A stretch of DNA of 48,568 nt from the NCBI GenBank assembly GCA_012519705.1, contig JAAYPR010000043.1, forward strand, positions 1 through 48,568. The letters are read 5' to 3'. The notes under the pieces are model-generated. The model made no database searches. It saw nothing but the letters and a program-made list of their open reading frames with translations, and was not told the DNA's origin. Origin of the DNA: Campylobacteraceae bacterium. Lineage in GTDB: Bacteria; Campylobacterota; Campylobacteria; Campylobacterales; Campylobacteraceae. Position numbers and translations under genes: made by a program. Positions 17,885-24,882 of this stretch are shown in pieces (within the stretch, counting starts at the first letter, position 1; each line of letters begins with the position of its first letter).

Positions 17885-20083
17885 TTATAAACTTACAACT
17901 TTTGAGCCATATCCACCCTCATTTGGGGCTCCATCTCTAAAAGCTTTAACATTTGGATGAGAGCTTAAAAACTCTTTTACAGCAGCTGCCAGCTTTCCAG
18001 TGCCGATACCATGCTTTACAACAACTTCATCAAAGCCCATAAGAAGACTATCTGAGATAAATTTATCTAAATTATTGAGAGCTTCTTCAACTCTTTGACC
18101 GTGCAAATCAAGAGTGAAATTTGGCGAAGTTGGCTTTGAGACGCTTATTTTAACACTCTGTTTTTTAGGCACTATCTCTCCGCTACTTTTTTTAAGTAGT
18201 TTTGTAGCAACTCTTAGACTTAGTCCATCAGCTAAAACAAGAGCTTCGTTTTTGGTTAAATTTATGATTTCGCCCTTGATATTTCCATATTTTACGATAT
18301 CGCCAACTTTAAACTCCTCTGGCTTGATTTTGGGTTTTTTGATAGAAGTTTTTAGCTCATTTGCTTTGTTTATGCTTCTTTGTTTCTCTTTTGTATCTTT
18401 TAGCCTAACGCCTTTTTTAGCCTCTTCGATTGCTTTATAATACTCAAGCTCAAGCCTTTTCATGAGTGCAATTTGCTCATCTTCATGTTTTTGTTTTTGG
18501 TTTTTAAGACTTTCTAAGAGCGAGTCAAGCTTAGCCTCTTTTTTCTCAGTTTCACTTAGTCTTTCTTTTAATTTCATCTCTAAATTTATAGCTTTACTTA
18601 TAGCTTCGTTTAGGCTTTCTTTATCTTCGCCGTAAACACTCTTTGCACTTGCTACGATATTTGGTGCGATACCATACCTTAGAGCTGTCTCAAAAGCGTA
18701 TGATTTGCCAATCACGCCTTCCAAAAACTCAAATTTAGGAAGCCCAGCGTTTTCATCATACAAAGCTGCCACCAACTCAACATCACTGTTTTTAGCTAGT
18801 AGCATGGCAAGGCGTTTGTGGTGAGTTGTGATTATCATCTTAACATCACTTTTTATTAAGTGCTCTATCATCACGCTATACAGACTTGCCGCTTCTTCAA
18901 AGTCAGTTCCTAGCTCTATCTCATCAACGCCAAGAAGGATGTTTTTCCTCCCAAAAAGTTTGCTAAAACTAAGCATCCTACCTGCAAAAGTTGAGATGTC
19001 ATTTTTAGCATTTTGTTCATCTTCCATAATAAGTTCAAACTCTTTAAAGGTGCCAATTTTACTTTTGCCTGCGTTTATTTTCATAGGAAGAAGGTATTTT
19101 GAGAGAATGGAAGCTGAGACAATGGACTTTAAAAGCATACTTTTTCCACCAGCGTTTACACCTGTGATTAAAAGTACTTTTTTGCTAAAGTTTATGCTAA
19201 CAGGTTTTGGGTTTTTTAAAATAGGATGAGAGAAGTCTTTTATAACTACTTCATCCCCTCTGTCAGCTAAAACAAACTCTAAGTCTTTACTTCTAGCAAA
19301 CATCGCCCTTGCTATAAGGCTGTCAAGCTTGTCAAAAGCTTTGTTTATAAACTTTAAAAACAGCAGATGTTTGTTAAAACTAAGGCTTATTTTTTTACAA
19401 TGCTCATAAATAATCTCTTCTTTTTTATCTAGTATTTCGCTTTGCTCACTCTTAAGCTTAGAGATAGAACTTGGTACTATATAAAAATACCCAGAACTAC
19501 TTCTTCCAACCACACTTCCTTTTAAAACATGGTTAAACCCGCCTCTTACAAGCAAAGTCTCAGTCTCGTTTATATAGTGAATTTGCGTATCAACAAGATA
19601 AGGCGTTATGCTTTTTGTATAAATTAGCTTTCTAAGAGTGTCGTTAATCTCGTTTTTCTTTATCTCATAAGCTTGTTTTAGGCTGTAAAACCGCTCATCA
19701 ACGCTGTCTTTAAACTCGCCATTTTCATCAAAAAGGGTTGGTAGTTTTGAAATTTCATCAGGAATTTCTATCTTTAAAAGCCAGTTATTTAAGCTTCCCT
19801 CAAAAGGCAGGGTTTTAATGTATTTAAAGTATTTTATTATCTTAGAAAACTCATAAATTTCACTTATATGCAAAACTGCGAATTTAGAAATTCTCATCAA
19901 CGCATCATCTAAATTTGCTATATTTCCAACTAGCTCTATGTCAAATTTAGCTAACTCTAAAATTTGCTCATAATTAACCCTGCTATCACCCTCTAAAAAA
20001 AGCGGTTTTTCTCTAGCGAGATATGAGTTAAACTCACTTAAATACTCGTCTAAATCAAGTCTTTCAAAGATATCTTTTTTCAC
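17885..20083 (-). CDS. mutS2: Endonuclease MutS2
   Basis: This 732-aa ATPase/nuclease suppresses homologous and homeologous recombination and, in other bacteria, splits collided ribosomes. The MutS-type ATPase has Walker A ITGVNAGGKSMLLKS and Walker B LLGVDEIELGTDFEE. A coiled coil follows (about 495-565), and the C-terminal Smr domain has LDLHGQRVEEAL and HGIGTGKL. The start is GTG with an AAGGA some distance upstream. Gene order LysE-mutS2-membrane protein-murC matches C. jejuni, but without the restriction gene found there between LysE and mutS2. Confidence 0.93.
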   Translation of the reverse strand: MKKDIFERLDLDEYLSEFNSYLAREKPLFLEGDSRVNYEQILELAKFDIELVGNIANLDDALMRISKFAVLHISEIYEFSKIIKYFKYIKTLPFEGSLNNWLLKIEIPDEISKLPTLFDENGEFKDSVDERFYSLKQAYEIKKNEINDTLRKLIYTKSITPYLVDTQIHYINETETLLVRGGFNHVLKGSVVGRSSSGYFYIVPSSISKLKSEQSEILDKKEEIIYEHCKKISLSFNKHLLFLKFINKAFDKLDSLIARAMFARSKDLEFVLADRGDEVVIKDFSHPILKNPKPVSINFSKKVLLITGVNAGGKSMLLKSIVSASILSKYLLPMKINAGKSKIGTFKEFELIMEDEQNAKNDISTFAGRMLSFSKLFGRKNILLGVDEIELGTDFEEAASLYSVMIEHLIKSDVKMIITTHHKRLAMLLAKNSDVELVAALYDENAGLPKFEFLEGVIGKSYAFETALRYGIAPNIVASAKSVYGEDKESLNEAISKAINLEMKLKERLSETEKKEAKLDSLLESLKNQKQKHEDEQIALMKRLELEYYKAIEEAKKGVRLKDTKEKQRSINKANELKTSIKKPKIKPEEFKVGDIVKYGNIKGEIINLTKNEALVLADGLSLRVATKLLKKSSGEIVPKKQSVKISVSKPTSPNFTLDLHGQRVEEALNNLDKFISDSLLMGFDEVVVKHGIGTGKLAAAVKEFLSSHPNVKAFRDGAPNEGGYGSKVVSL

Positions 20084-20468: not shown

Positions 20469-21770
20469 CTATCCCCTAATCTGTTTTGAAATATCCCCAG
20501 CACCAAAAGCTATCACGATTCCTTCATCTAAAACGTGGCGAACAGAGTAAATATCATCAAACTCAACATGAGAGTTGACTCTCTCGACTTCTTTAGCAAA
20601 CAAAGGATTTAGATGTTTAAACTCTTTTTGTAAATCTACACCGTTATCACTCTCGCCAGCTGAATATACAGGTAAAACCACTAAATCATCACAGTCGCTA
20701 AAGCACTCTTTGAAACCTTCTAGGTTCGCCTTAAGTCTAGTGTAACGGTGAGGCTGGAAAATAGCTGTGATTTTATCTATGCCCATTAAATTTGCATACT
20801 CTCTAACGCTTTTTAGAGTCGCTTTTATCTCTGTTGGGTGGTGTCCGTAGTCATCGATTAAAACAAAATCTTTAGTCGCAGTTAAAATATCAAAGCGTCT
20901 TTTGATGCCTTTATACTGGGCTAAGTTCTCTCTAACTCTCTCTAGTCCAATTTCTGAGTTTGCCGCTAAAATAGCAAGGCTTGCATCTATAGCGATATGT
21001 TCGCCGATACCAAAAATTTCAAATCTTCCTAAATTTTTAAGGTTAAAACTCATATATGGCTCGTAGTTTCTTAAAACCAACCTAACATCAGTTATATCCT
21101 TGCTTGGAAAAAGCTTAATACACTCCATTTTTATGCTTGATAAAAACTCATCTTCAGCATTTATCACACAAATTTTAGCCCTTTCCAAAAAGCCCCTATA
21201 AGCAGCGTGGAATTTCTCTATATCAAAGTCATAATGCTCCATATGTTCAGGCTCAGCGTTGGTAACTAGGGCTAAATAGGGGTTTGAGTTTAAAAAGCTA
21301 CTATCGCTCTCATCAGCTTCAAAGATGATATTTTCACTCTCAAAATACTTCATATTTGAGCCAAACTGCTTTGAAATCGCCCCTATGATAACGCTCCCGT
21401 CCATCAGGCTTGCAAGCATCGCTGAAGTTGTGCTTTTACCATGAGCCCCTGCTACTGCAAAAACTCTTTTATCTTTTAAAACAAGTGGCAAAGCCTCTTT
21501 TCTAGATAGGCATTTAATGCCCTTTTTCCTAGCCTCCACAAGCTCTACGTTATCAGGCTTAATAGCAGCTGAGTAAACTACAAAATCTTGATCTTTGATA
21601 ATCTCTTTTGAGTGAGGCGTTACAACTTCCATCCCCTCATCTCTTAACTCTTTTATAGTTTCGCTCTCTTTAATATCAGAGCCACTTATGATAAAATCTC
21701 TCTCTTTTAAAAACCTAGCTAACGCAGAAATCCCAATCCCGCCAATGCCTATAAAATGAACTTTTTTCAA
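20469..21770 (-). CDS. murC: UDP-N-acetylmuramate--L-alanine ligase MurC
   Basis: It adds L-Ala to UDP-MurNAc in peptidoglycan synthesis. The N-terminal Rossmann motif is HFIGIGGIGISALARFL, the ATP-binding loop is AGAHGKSTTSAM, EADESDSSF provides the Mg/ATP contact, and IDDYGHHPTEI marks the C-terminal domain. The length of 433 aa is normal for the group. The start codon is TTG. A decayed second copy of its first 45 codons lies 400 bp upstream at 22173-22301. Confidence 0.95.
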   Translation of the reverse strand: MKKVHFIGIGGIGISALARFLKERDFIISGSDIKESETIKELRDEGMEVVTPHSKEIIKDQDFVVYSAAIKPDNVELVEARKKGIKCLSRKEALPLVLKDKRVFAVAGAHGKSTTSAMLASLMDGSVIIGAISKQFGSNMKYFESENIIFEADESDSSFLNSNPYLALVTNAEPEHMEHYDFDIEKFHAAYRGFLERAKICVINAEDEFLSSIKMECIKLFPSKDITDVRLVLRNYEPYMSFNLKNLGRFEIFGIGEHIAIDASLAILAANSEIGLERVRENLAQYKGIKRRFDILTATKDFVLIDDYGHHPTEIKATLKSVREYANLMGIDKITAIFQPHRYTRLKANLEGFKECFSDCDDLVVLPVYSAGESDNGVDLQKEFKHLNPLFAKEVERVNSHVEFDDIYSVRHVLDEGIVIAFGAGDISKQIRG

Positions 21771-21887
21771 ATTTGACCTTTTAAAAATTTATAACTTTGT
21801 ATTTTATCAAAATGTTCTTTAGCATTCAATGAGAGATGGGGAAGTTTTTTGTTTTATATGTTTTTTACGTTGCCAAACATAAAAAAA

Positions 21888-22172
21888 TCAGATGGTTTTT
21901 GGGGTTAGTTTTATCTCTGCTGTAAACCCACACGCTTCTAGATATTTAAACAGAGTTGAAAGCTTAGTATCGCTTGAGTTTGTCTCAAGTCTAGCAACAG
22001 CACTTTGTTTAACCCCCATCTTTTTAGCTAACTCTTCTTGAGTTAAATCTGCTGATTTTCTAGCTTTGGCTAAAGCATCTATGACTTTATACTCGGCATC
22101 GAGTCTTTCATACTCTTTTCTAAACTCTTCGTTTTGCATAAGTTTTTCTTTTACTTGGCTAAATGATATCAT
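21888..22172 (-). CDS. Orphan HTH (Xre/HigA-like) regulator
   Basis: This 94-aa protein has an N-terminal helical part and an Xre-type helix-turn-helix at about 43-65 (LTQEELAKKMGVKQSAVARL), like HigA antitoxins. No RelE/HigB toxin gene is adjacent: upstream is the GmrSD-like gene, downstream is murC. Its ATG (22170-22172) and the AAGGAG seven bases before it lie in, or exactly at the edge of, a duplicated murC fragment. So the translation start was probably built from murC sequence. It could repress its own operon, including the GmrSD-like gene. Confidence 0.78.
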   Translation of the reverse strand: MISFSQVKEKLMQNEEFRKEYERLDAEYKVIDALAKARKSADLTQEELAKKMGVKQSAVARLETNSSDTKLSTLFKYLEACGFTAEIKLTPKTI

Positions 22173-22301
22173 CTCTTAACTCCTTTATAATTTCACTCTC
22201 TTTGATGTCAGAGCCACTTATAATAAAATCTCTCTTTTAAAAATATATTTAATATAGAAATTTCAAGCCTGACAATACTTATAAAATGAATTTTCAAATT
22301 T
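22170..22301 (-). pseudogene. Decayed duplicate of the murC 5' end
   Basis: This stretch aligns by eye with 21638-21774, the first codons of murC plus the TTG start: 112 of 132 aligned bases match (about 85%), with a 2-base and a 3-base gap. Most changes are C-to-T or G-to-A on the plus strand, as expected for drift in an AT-rich genome. The 2-base gap breaks the frame. The fragment fills the whole gap between the stop codon of the GmrSD-like gene and the start of the HTH gene, and the HTH gene lies between this and the intact copy as direct repeats. Confidence 0.9.
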
Positions 22302-24147
22302 AATCTATTTCCCATACTATTTTTACTAATTGATAAAGTAATCTAGTCCTATATTCTATGGCATCTTTATCAAATTTATCTATACTTTTAAATTGCAAAT
22401 CCGTCTTATCTTGAAATGCCATATTAAAATCTTTAAAATTTGGATTAGTATGATAAAAGTCACTACATAAAGTTTGACCCCAAACTAAATCTTTAATATA
22501 AGTTTTTAACTTATCTTCATATGTCTCATTTCCCGAGCTAATGTTGGAACGACCATTTAAAAGAAGTAAGGCACCTAGTCGATTTCTTTTTTCATCAAAT
22601 TCATCATCAGAATCAAATAACTGTCTATTATCGTCATTATATGATAAAATATGTTCCACATGATATCCAGTTTTTTCTCCTGTTTTTGTAGATATATGTT
22701 GAACACTATTTTTCATACTTTGATTTAATTCACTACAAATATACTCTTCAATTCTAGAAAAAAGATACCTTATAAATTTTACATTAAGATTGCGATAAGA
22801 GTTTGAATTAAAAACAGAATACCCTAAAATATTTTTTATATCATCTTTGTTTGTATTTTTGCCTAGCTCATCCAAAATTAAATTATTAAAAATATTACGA
22901 TATCTACCAATTTCTTCATTTTTTAACAACTCATTAAGCCTATATGATATTTCCTGAAAAGTATTACTATTGTAAGCTTGATTTAACATTAATATTACAT
23001 ATAGTCTATCATACTCTTTTGCTATTTTTGTTATTTTTATATCTTCATTAATATCATTTAATTCGCAAGCAGATAGTATATTTTGATAAACTCCGCTAAG
23101 TCCGTTTATTGTATTGTTATACATTAAATACTTATCTTCATTTTTTGTTATTTTTCCATAAAGATTAGCATAATAAACAAGTTTCTTTTCAATGAAATTT
23201 TTAATATTTTTTATTTTATTGTTGTTTGTTTTTTGAAAGCCAAAAAAATTTGCAATATCATTGTTTTCAAATAAGTAACGATGATATTCATTATTAATTT
23301 TATTTTCTATAGAAGAGTTTTTTTGAAATATGGTTTGACTTTTAATATAGTCTATAAAAAAAATATCCTCTTTGTTGCTAACATTACTTAAAGCATCAAT
23401 CCATAATGCATTGTATTTTTCTATATCATCTTTATCTAAAATTCCTATTAATTTACCTTTTAAAATTTCAAAAGATAATAGTTTTTCACCCCTATCATTT
23501 ATGGCTTCAAATATCATGGGCACATCATTTTGCTTATCAATAGAAAGCTCAACTAAAATAAGCCTATACAAAAAATAAAGACAAAATACTTTCAATTTTT
23601 TATCATCCATATCCTGCTTATCAAAAAAATTCTCTACATCTTTATATCTGTCTAATATGTTTTTTTCGGTTGTGTTTTTATATTGAAATTTATCGCCTTC
23701 AAGCAAATGCCTCATAACATTTTCTCTTTTATTGTGATCAATATTAAACAACTTATCACCATCAGGATTTATATCAAGAACGCACTCTTTAAGTGTTTTT
23801 TCTAAACCATCGAAACCTTTTAATTTTGCTTTTTTATAAAGGAAAAGTGCTATTAGTGTTAAACTTGTGAGACGTTGTTGCCCATCTACTATAAAAATTG
23901 TGCTATCTACTTTATTTGTTATAAAAACATTAAGATAATACCAATTAAATTTATCTATGTTTTTGCTATCAATATCGCTATCTTTATGTTCAAAGTAAGA
24001 AGTATCAAATGCATAAAATATATCATTTAATAGAGTTAATATGGTATCTTTTTCCCAAACATAATCTCTCTGATAAAAATCCACTCCGTAATTTCTATTT
24101 TTTAAACTTCGCATAACATTTGATTTATCAGGTGTTATATCTCTCAT
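22300..24147 (-). CDS. GmrSD-like DUF262/DUF1524 protein, probable anti-phage nuclease
   Basis: The N-terminal DUF262 (ParB/Srx-like NTPase) domain shows FYQRDYVWE (about 24-32) and IVDGQQRLTSL (86-96), the nucleotide-binding/hydrolysis motif. The C-terminal DUF1524 His-Me finger shows HVEHILS (496-502) and, about 20 residues on, NRLGALLLLNGRSN. Fused proteins of this type include the GmrSD type IV restriction enzymes, which cut modified (glycosylated hydroxymethyl) phage DNA, and related defence proteins such as BrxU. The 615-aa frame is intact. The gene is much more AT-rich than its neighbours and breaks the usual murC neighbourhood, so it was probably acquired. Confidence 0.88.
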   Translation of the reverse strand: MRDITPDKSNVMRSLKNRNYGVDFYQRDYVWEKDTILTLLNDIFYAFDTSYFEHKDSDIDSKNIDKFNWYYLNVFITNKVDSTIFIVDGQQRLTSLTLIALFLYKKAKLKGFDGLEKTLKECVLDINPDGDKLFNIDHNKRENVMRHLLEGDKFQYKNTTEKNILDRYKDVENFFDKQDMDDKKLKVFCLYFLYRLILVELSIDKQNDVPMIFEAINDRGEKLLSFEILKGKLIGILDKDDIEKYNALWIDALSNVSNKEDIFFIDYIKSQTIFQKNSSIENKINNEYHRYLFENNDIANFFGFQKTNNNKIKNIKNFIEKKLVYYANLYGKITKNEDKYLMYNNTINGLSGVYQNILSACELNDINEDIKITKIAKEYDRLYVILMLNQAYNSNTFQEISYRLNELLKNEEIGRYRNIFNNLILDELGKNTNKDDIKNILGYSVFNSNSYRNLNVKFIRYLFSRIEEYICSELNQSMKNSVQHISTKTGEKTGYHVEHILSYNDDNRQLFDSDDEFDEKRNRLGALLLLNGRSNISSGNETYEDKLKTYIKDLVWGQTLCSDFYHTNPNFKDFNMAFQDKTDLQFKSIDKFDKDAIEYRTRLLYQLVKIVWEID

Positions 24148-24219: not shown

Positions 24220-24882
24220 CTATATTAGGTTAAATTTACTAACTTTTAATTCGCCACTATGGATATCAAGATAATGAAGTATGTCAAATTTAACAGGAAG
24301 CTCGGCAAGATAGCGAAGTGCTAAATTTGCCTCAAATGCAGCTATAAACATAACTATTGGAGCGGTTAAGCCTTTTGGCTTAAGGCTTTCATTAGCTAAA
24401 GGCTTAAAATTTGCATCTTTTATAAAACAAACTTGTCCATGAAAGCTCTCAACCGCTGAGTAAATCCAAGGCGTGTTGCTAAGTTTAGCGAAATTTGCTA
24501 TCTCGCTTCTTGTTTTGTCGTTATCCGTTGCATCTAAAATAAGATCAAACTTAACATTATTTGAGTTTACAAACTCACTAAATTTAACCTTATGAGTTAC
24601 AACTTTAACGCCATTGTATCTACTCTCTACAACACTTTTAAAAACATCGGCTTTAAATTTACCTTCGTCTTTTAGAGTAAAAAGAATTTGTCTATGGATA
24701 TTATGAAGCGAAACCGTGTCAAAGTCCACTACGTGAATTTCCCCTATCCCACTTCCTCCAAGTGCCAAAGCCAAACTACTTCCAAGCCCACCACTTCCAA
24801 CAATCAAAACTTTTTTACTCTCTAAACTCTTTTGGGTCTCCTCGCCCCAAAGTTCTATCTGTCTATGGAAGTAGTTTTTCAC
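24220..24882 (-). CDS. ThiF/MoeB/HesA-family adenylyltransferase-like protein without zinc cysteines
   Basis: This is an E1-like fold protein of 220 aa. The ATP loop is IVGSGGLGSSLALAL, followed by the conserved VDFDTVSLHNIHRQIL (acidic and Arg contacts) and ILDATDN. ThiF and MoeB usually adenylate the C-terminal Gly of ThiS or MoaD and carry two CxxC zinc pairs. Here only one Cys is present in the protein (QVCFIKD), so zinc binding in that form is lost. No ThiS/MoaD-like gene is next to it. It overlaps the nitrilase-like gene by 20 bases. Confidence 0.75.
   Translation of the reverse strand: MKNYFHRQIELWGEETQKSLESKKVLIVGSGGLGSSLALALGGSGIGEIHVVDFDTVSLHNIHRQILFTLKDEGKFKADVFKSVVESRYNGVKVVTHKVKFSEFVNSNNVKFDLILDATDNDKTRSEIANFAKLSNTPWIYSAVESFHGQVCFIKDANFKPLANESLKPKGLTAPIVMFIAAFEANLALRYLAELPVKFDILHYLDIHSGELKVSKFNLI

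Follow-up and report, generated by a model that had tools for sequence, protein, structure and literature searches.

HigBA-like type II operons encode a Gp49 toxin (PF05973) first and an XRE antitoxin second. Orphan antitoxins are also known, and many have been described as remnants of degraded toxin-antitoxin systems (PMC7354431). Two further kinds of described system bear on the locus considered here: the GmrSD (DUF262-DUF1524) type IV restriction-like proteins, and microhomology-mediated deletion with templated insertion, or homology-facilitated illegitimate recombination, in which short matches at the joints are accompanied by filler copied from nearby DNA. The literature searched held general reviews of orphan antitoxins and no published account of the present locus. 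Here, we describe a stretch of 48,568 nt (the window) from a Campylobacteraceae bacterium, in which a helix-turn-helix (HTH) gene follows a decayed duplicate of the first codons of the neighbouring murC. On sequence grounds, and at a probability of roughly two in three, we read it as a Gp49/HigB plus XRE/HigA operon whose toxin gene was replaced by the murC start at short matches, the antitoxin surviving with its start signals.

The thiF-murC interval and its setting in relatives

Along the minus strand, thiF is followed by the GmrSD-like gene, the murC fragment, the HTH gene and murC (Table 1), with murC, HTH, GmrSD and thiF the only genes between 20469 and 24882. The intact murC, 72-83% identical to the murC of 13 relatives, keeps a promoter-like stretch directly upstream that is similar to theirs, and a promoter scan, in which consensus-like sites came to about twice the shuffled mean, placed such a site at 21829-21801, in the spacer before murC. 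No promoter is claimed for the HTH gene, and the scan gave no minus-strand consensus-like site inside the copy. The GmrSD-like gene has GmrSD_N and GmrSD_C both above their cut-offs and therefore contains the domains of the GmrSD type IV restriction family.

Table 1. Features of the locus, with positions in the window.
Feature	Positions	Strand	Evidence
Intact murC, TTG start	20469..21770	-	NCBIfam TIGR01082 murC, E 1.4e-117, above cut-off
Spacer with murC promoter-like stretch TTTTGATAAAATA, resembling the murC upstream region of relatives	21771..21887	-	Sequence comparison with relatives
XRE/HigA-like antitoxin gene (HTH gene), orphan, 94 aa; assignment most likely	21888..22172	-	Pfam, PDB matches, Gp49-paired homologues
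Junction AAAGGAGTTAAGAGATGA, ribosome binding site and HTH start	22170..22187	-	Found both in murC codons 40-45 and where toxin 3' and antitoxin 5' ends overlap in homologues
Decayed copy of murC codons 1-45, at the place of the toxin gene in homologous operons	22170..22304	-	Alignment, tree
GmrSD-like gene (GmrSD_N and GmrSD_C), 615 aa	22300..24147	-	PF03235 E 6.7e-23, PF07510 E 1.7e-9
thiF, left neighbour of the accessory block	24220..24882	-	PF00899 E 4.3e-43

All 14 genomes of the genus Campylobacter contain murC, and the stretch upstream of it (24220-21770 here; loci L016-L028) is a variable spot in the genus, being empty or occupied by a multihaem cytochrome gene, a DNA glycosylase or, in this case, GmrSD and an orphan antitoxin. 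In L017 and L035, thiF is followed by murC after 61 nt with nothing between them; many relatives have the multihaem cytochrome gene, on the opposite strand, and L021 the DNA glycosylase. A close GmrSD homologue was found in no other member of the genus, and HTH homologues within it were confined to one other member and not near murC. As relatives thus differ at this place, GmrSD and the HTH gene count as an accessory block in a variable site, and none of the relatives searched has this block between thiF and murC or in the stretch upstream of murC. No other genome of the same species turned up in the collections searched, the viral contigs had no relatives of HTH or GmrSD, and E. coli genomes gave no match. 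A GmrSD with 51% identity occurs roughly 8 kb away from murC in a different genus of the family (L075, G387), a proximity that is probably a coincidence of accessory spots.

The HTH gene matches HTH_3 (E 6.6e-14, 52.1 bits against a cut-off of 23) and HTH_37 (34.2 bits against 27), the relatives of its product in the PDB are HipB and HigA (HigA match 6af3), and it has the XRE-type HTH domain of the antitoxins of Gp49/HigB - XRE/HigA systems. A Gp49/HigB-like toxin lies directly upstream in 33 of 35 homologues tested within the Campylobacterales (PF05973 for the three homologue toxins tested). Directly upstream of the HTH gene here there is no toxin gene, and tblastn with five toxins detected neither a toxin nor a toxin remnant in the window, which bears out its description as an orphan in the first-pass annotation. 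Across the genome that toxin has a single relative, located on contig C36 next to its own antitoxin, in an intact Gp49 toxin/XRE antitoxin pair (L012, 1166-1773). The HTH gene is thus most likely, judging by domains and gene order, a member of the XRE/HigA-like antitoxin family that was orphaned by toxin loss. Toxin loss by other routes is seen in L044, L047 and L048, where homologous pairs have a truncated or frame-shifted toxin with the antitoxin match still present; the antitoxin of L047 also carries a stop.

The murC copy: extent, lineage and decay

Local alignment of the copied stretch to the start of murC, from just before its TTG through codon 44-45, gave 112 identities in 133 positions with gaps of 3 and 2 bases, and the thiF-murC interval scored 80 against murC, where the best of 200 dinucleotide-preserving shuffles reached 22. 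These results confirm that the partial duplication is real and far above chance, as had been proposed from a match of the first 45 codons with two short gaps. The pair is also the longest direct repeat of the region in a repeat search (88% over 75 nt, spacing 532); the copy has the same orientation as the intact gene about 530 nt away and is the only extra murC copy of this length in the whole genome. Among 150 genomes of the family no other partial murC copy of such strength was seen. The boundaries lie exactly where they had first been placed, that is, at the ATGA with which the HTH gene starts (22172) and at the stop codon of GmrSD (22300-22302).

The HTH gene is accordingly flanked by two directly repeated murC segments, as would be the case if these were attL and attR of a mobile element integrating in the 5' end of murC. 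The repeats enclose only the 285-bp HTH gene, with no integrase between or next to them, they leave GmrSD outside and so do not flank the whole inserted block, and the two copies differ by 16%, all of which makes this reading very improbable. We also do not retain the suggestion that the copy marks how the block entered the locus: the outer edges of the block are thiF/GmrSD and antitoxin/murC promoter, whereas the copy lies inside, between GmrSD and the antitoxin.

A tree built on 133 columns places the copy as sister to this genome's own murC (support 95/86), with a branch length of 0.3 on the copy and none on murC, values that are rough given the short alignment, and relatives agree with murC against the copy at 17 of 24 substitutions. 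The copied fragment comes from the murC of this lineage and has since decayed; conserved glycines are lost and two gaps are present, so it is not a functional part of MurC. Faster decay in its first half (15 changes per 66 bases) than in its second (7) was considered and dropped at a Fisher p of 0.10.

The way in which the changes are distributed is relevant to a close rival of replacement by the neighbouring murC start. In this alternative, thiF-GmrSD-murC donor DNA recombined by transformation into a strain with thiF-toxin-antitoxin-murC. One of the crossovers would have fallen within homologous DNA at or before thiF and the second at the short stretch where murC matches the toxin, making the murC fragment the end of the import. 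Campylobacter species are commonly naturally transformable, a single event would account for fragment order, orientation and toxin loss, and five of the seven changes in the second half of the copy fall at third codon positions, as for a once-functional murC. This excess fails over the whole copy (10 of 23), the copy is nearest to this genome's own murC, and the required donor fusion of GmrSD to murC without the murC promoter was seen in no relative. We regard the merger as quite unlikely.

The two joints and the start of the antitoxin

At the right-hand joint, AAAGGAGTTAAGAGATGA in the copy corresponds to AAAAGAGTTAAGAGATGA in murC, with a single A/G difference before the ATG (AAAAGAG in murC, AAAGGAG in the copy), just as first described; viral contigs do not contain this exact junction sequence. 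In the HTH frame, the two codons that precede the ATG are TAA GAG, so that this ATG is the first possible start, with nothing earlier. The first-pass annotation had taken an ATG internal to murC to have become a new start by one A-to-G change. Put more fully, the HTH gene would have arrived without a start, its ATG and most of the binding site would stem from inside murC, and the one change would have finished the site. The junction does equal murC at 17 of 18 bases up to the ATGA, GGAG replacing AGAG, and codon 40 is AAA in most relatives keeping this lysine and AAG in one. Against this, antitoxin homologues carry GGAG and ATG in the same arrangement anyway: GGAG-N4-9-NTG precedes the antitoxin start in 28 of 35 homologues, and in the closest homologous operons GGAG-N7-ATG sits inside the toxin 3' end. 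In the closest set (L046, L045, L047, L002 and L011) the antitoxin starts within the last toxin codons, giving overlaps such as AAAGGAGTTTAAAGATGAG; the toxin of L046, for instance, ends in AGA TTA AAG GAG TTT AAA GAT GAG AAC CGT TAA, and its antitoxin begins within GATGAG. Identity to the antitoxin here is no more than 45-50% even for its closest homologues, whose starts lie two or six codons further upstream.

The idea of a newly made start also leaves it to coincidence that the duplication ends at the murC site most like a toxin/antitoxin overlap. When the 20-nt overlap of five homologues was compared with the murC coding sequence, the junction site was the single best fit, with 16 of 20 positions and the next at 14, and in the 48.6 kb of the window, on both strands and outside the duplication pair, one site tied with it, an unrelated one at 18322. 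We therefore consider the start-from-coding reading unlikely. A bolder form of it, in which duplication and one base change turned coding sequence of an essential gene into the start of a regulator, and an orphan antitoxin cut off from its own toxin-antitoxin promoter took on a new role beside a GmrSD defence gene, is given little chance.

The peptides at the joint are IKELRDEG in murC and LKEFKDEN or LKEWKDEN in the toxins, a chance likeness of two unrelated proteins in a short peptide and in the DNA that encodes it. At the joint murC is read in the frame of the toxin, and a TAG in this frame four codons further on produces the ending KELRDDII*, which resembles that of a toxin, as expected for an overlapping toxin stop. 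Since homologues have GGAG-N7-ATG at this place and murC resembles the overlap best at the junction, the HTH ATG and GGAG can be the antitoxin's own, and its translation start is most likely its own rather than newly made from murC. Part of the start region may be murC-derived, the 18 joint bases matching murC (17) slightly better than the nearest toxin end, that of L046 (16), and the lone A/G difference may be either the antitoxin's own G or a later change.

At the left-hand joint, GmrSD homologues (51-54% identical) end in WEVDR or similar followed by a stop, and the gene in the window ends in WEID*, its TAA being directly followed by ATTTG, which is common with murC. The GmrSD C-terminus may thus be native minus about one codon, with one codon lost and the stop formed at the joint.

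Probable course of the toxin loss and comparison with known systems

The replacement model starts from a site with GmrSD, toxin, antitoxin and murC in this order. Short sequence matches would then have guided a rearrangement, by template switching or microhomology (end) joining, in which the toxin gene was lost and about 135 nt of the neighbouring murC start took its place, in the same orientation. The right-hand joint would have formed where murC codons 39-45 (ATAAAAGAGTTAAGAGATGA) look like the 3' end of the toxin gene, for example TTAAAGGAGTTTAAAGATGA; since these last toxin codons also hold the ribosome binding site and ATG of the antitoxin, the usual start signals of the antitoxin would have been retained or immediately restored. 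On the left, the GmrSD end would have been fused to the murC start region, and the copy would have decayed afterwards while the antitoxin frame stayed open. Such a microhomology-guided exchange would explain toxin loss and an intact antitoxin start together. A strain with a toxin still between GmrSD and murC was not found, and the toxin's former presence is read from the gene order of the family. If the decay of the copy and the loss of the toxin date from one event, as the simulation presumes, a 94-codon frame evolving under the copy's own substitution and indel rates escapes both stops and indels in about 0.04% of simulations, and the antitoxin is therefore probably still under selection.

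The scar is readable and suggests how a single step can remove the toxin of a toxin-antitoxin pair while the antitoxin is still translated: the start signals of the antitoxin are located in the final codons of the toxin gene, and the neighbouring gene offered a chance match that allowed the exchange. It also cautions that a gene start lying within duplicated coding sequence is not necessarily a new one. For the cell, the effect is probably small.

The locus is an ordinary case of a known kind, an orphan antitoxin through toxin loss, and tells more when the HTH gene is recognised as an antitoxin. It shares with HigBA-like operons the antitoxin family, the GGAG-N7-ATG placed as in the last toxin codons and the in-frame TAG just after the antitoxin ATG, but has a murC fragment in place of the toxin gene. 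Like GmrSD proteins, the GmrSD-like gene has GmrSD_N and GmrSD_C in a single polypeptide, but it merely adjoins the duplication, outside the copied stretch. The short joint matches and filler copied from nearby DNA recall microhomology-mediated deletion or illegitimate recombination, here read from one old, decayed scar and not from the event itself. As with the orphan antitoxins of degraded TA systems (PMC7354431), an antitoxin is present without its cognate toxin; in contrast to those, both the replacing sequence and the joint are readable here.
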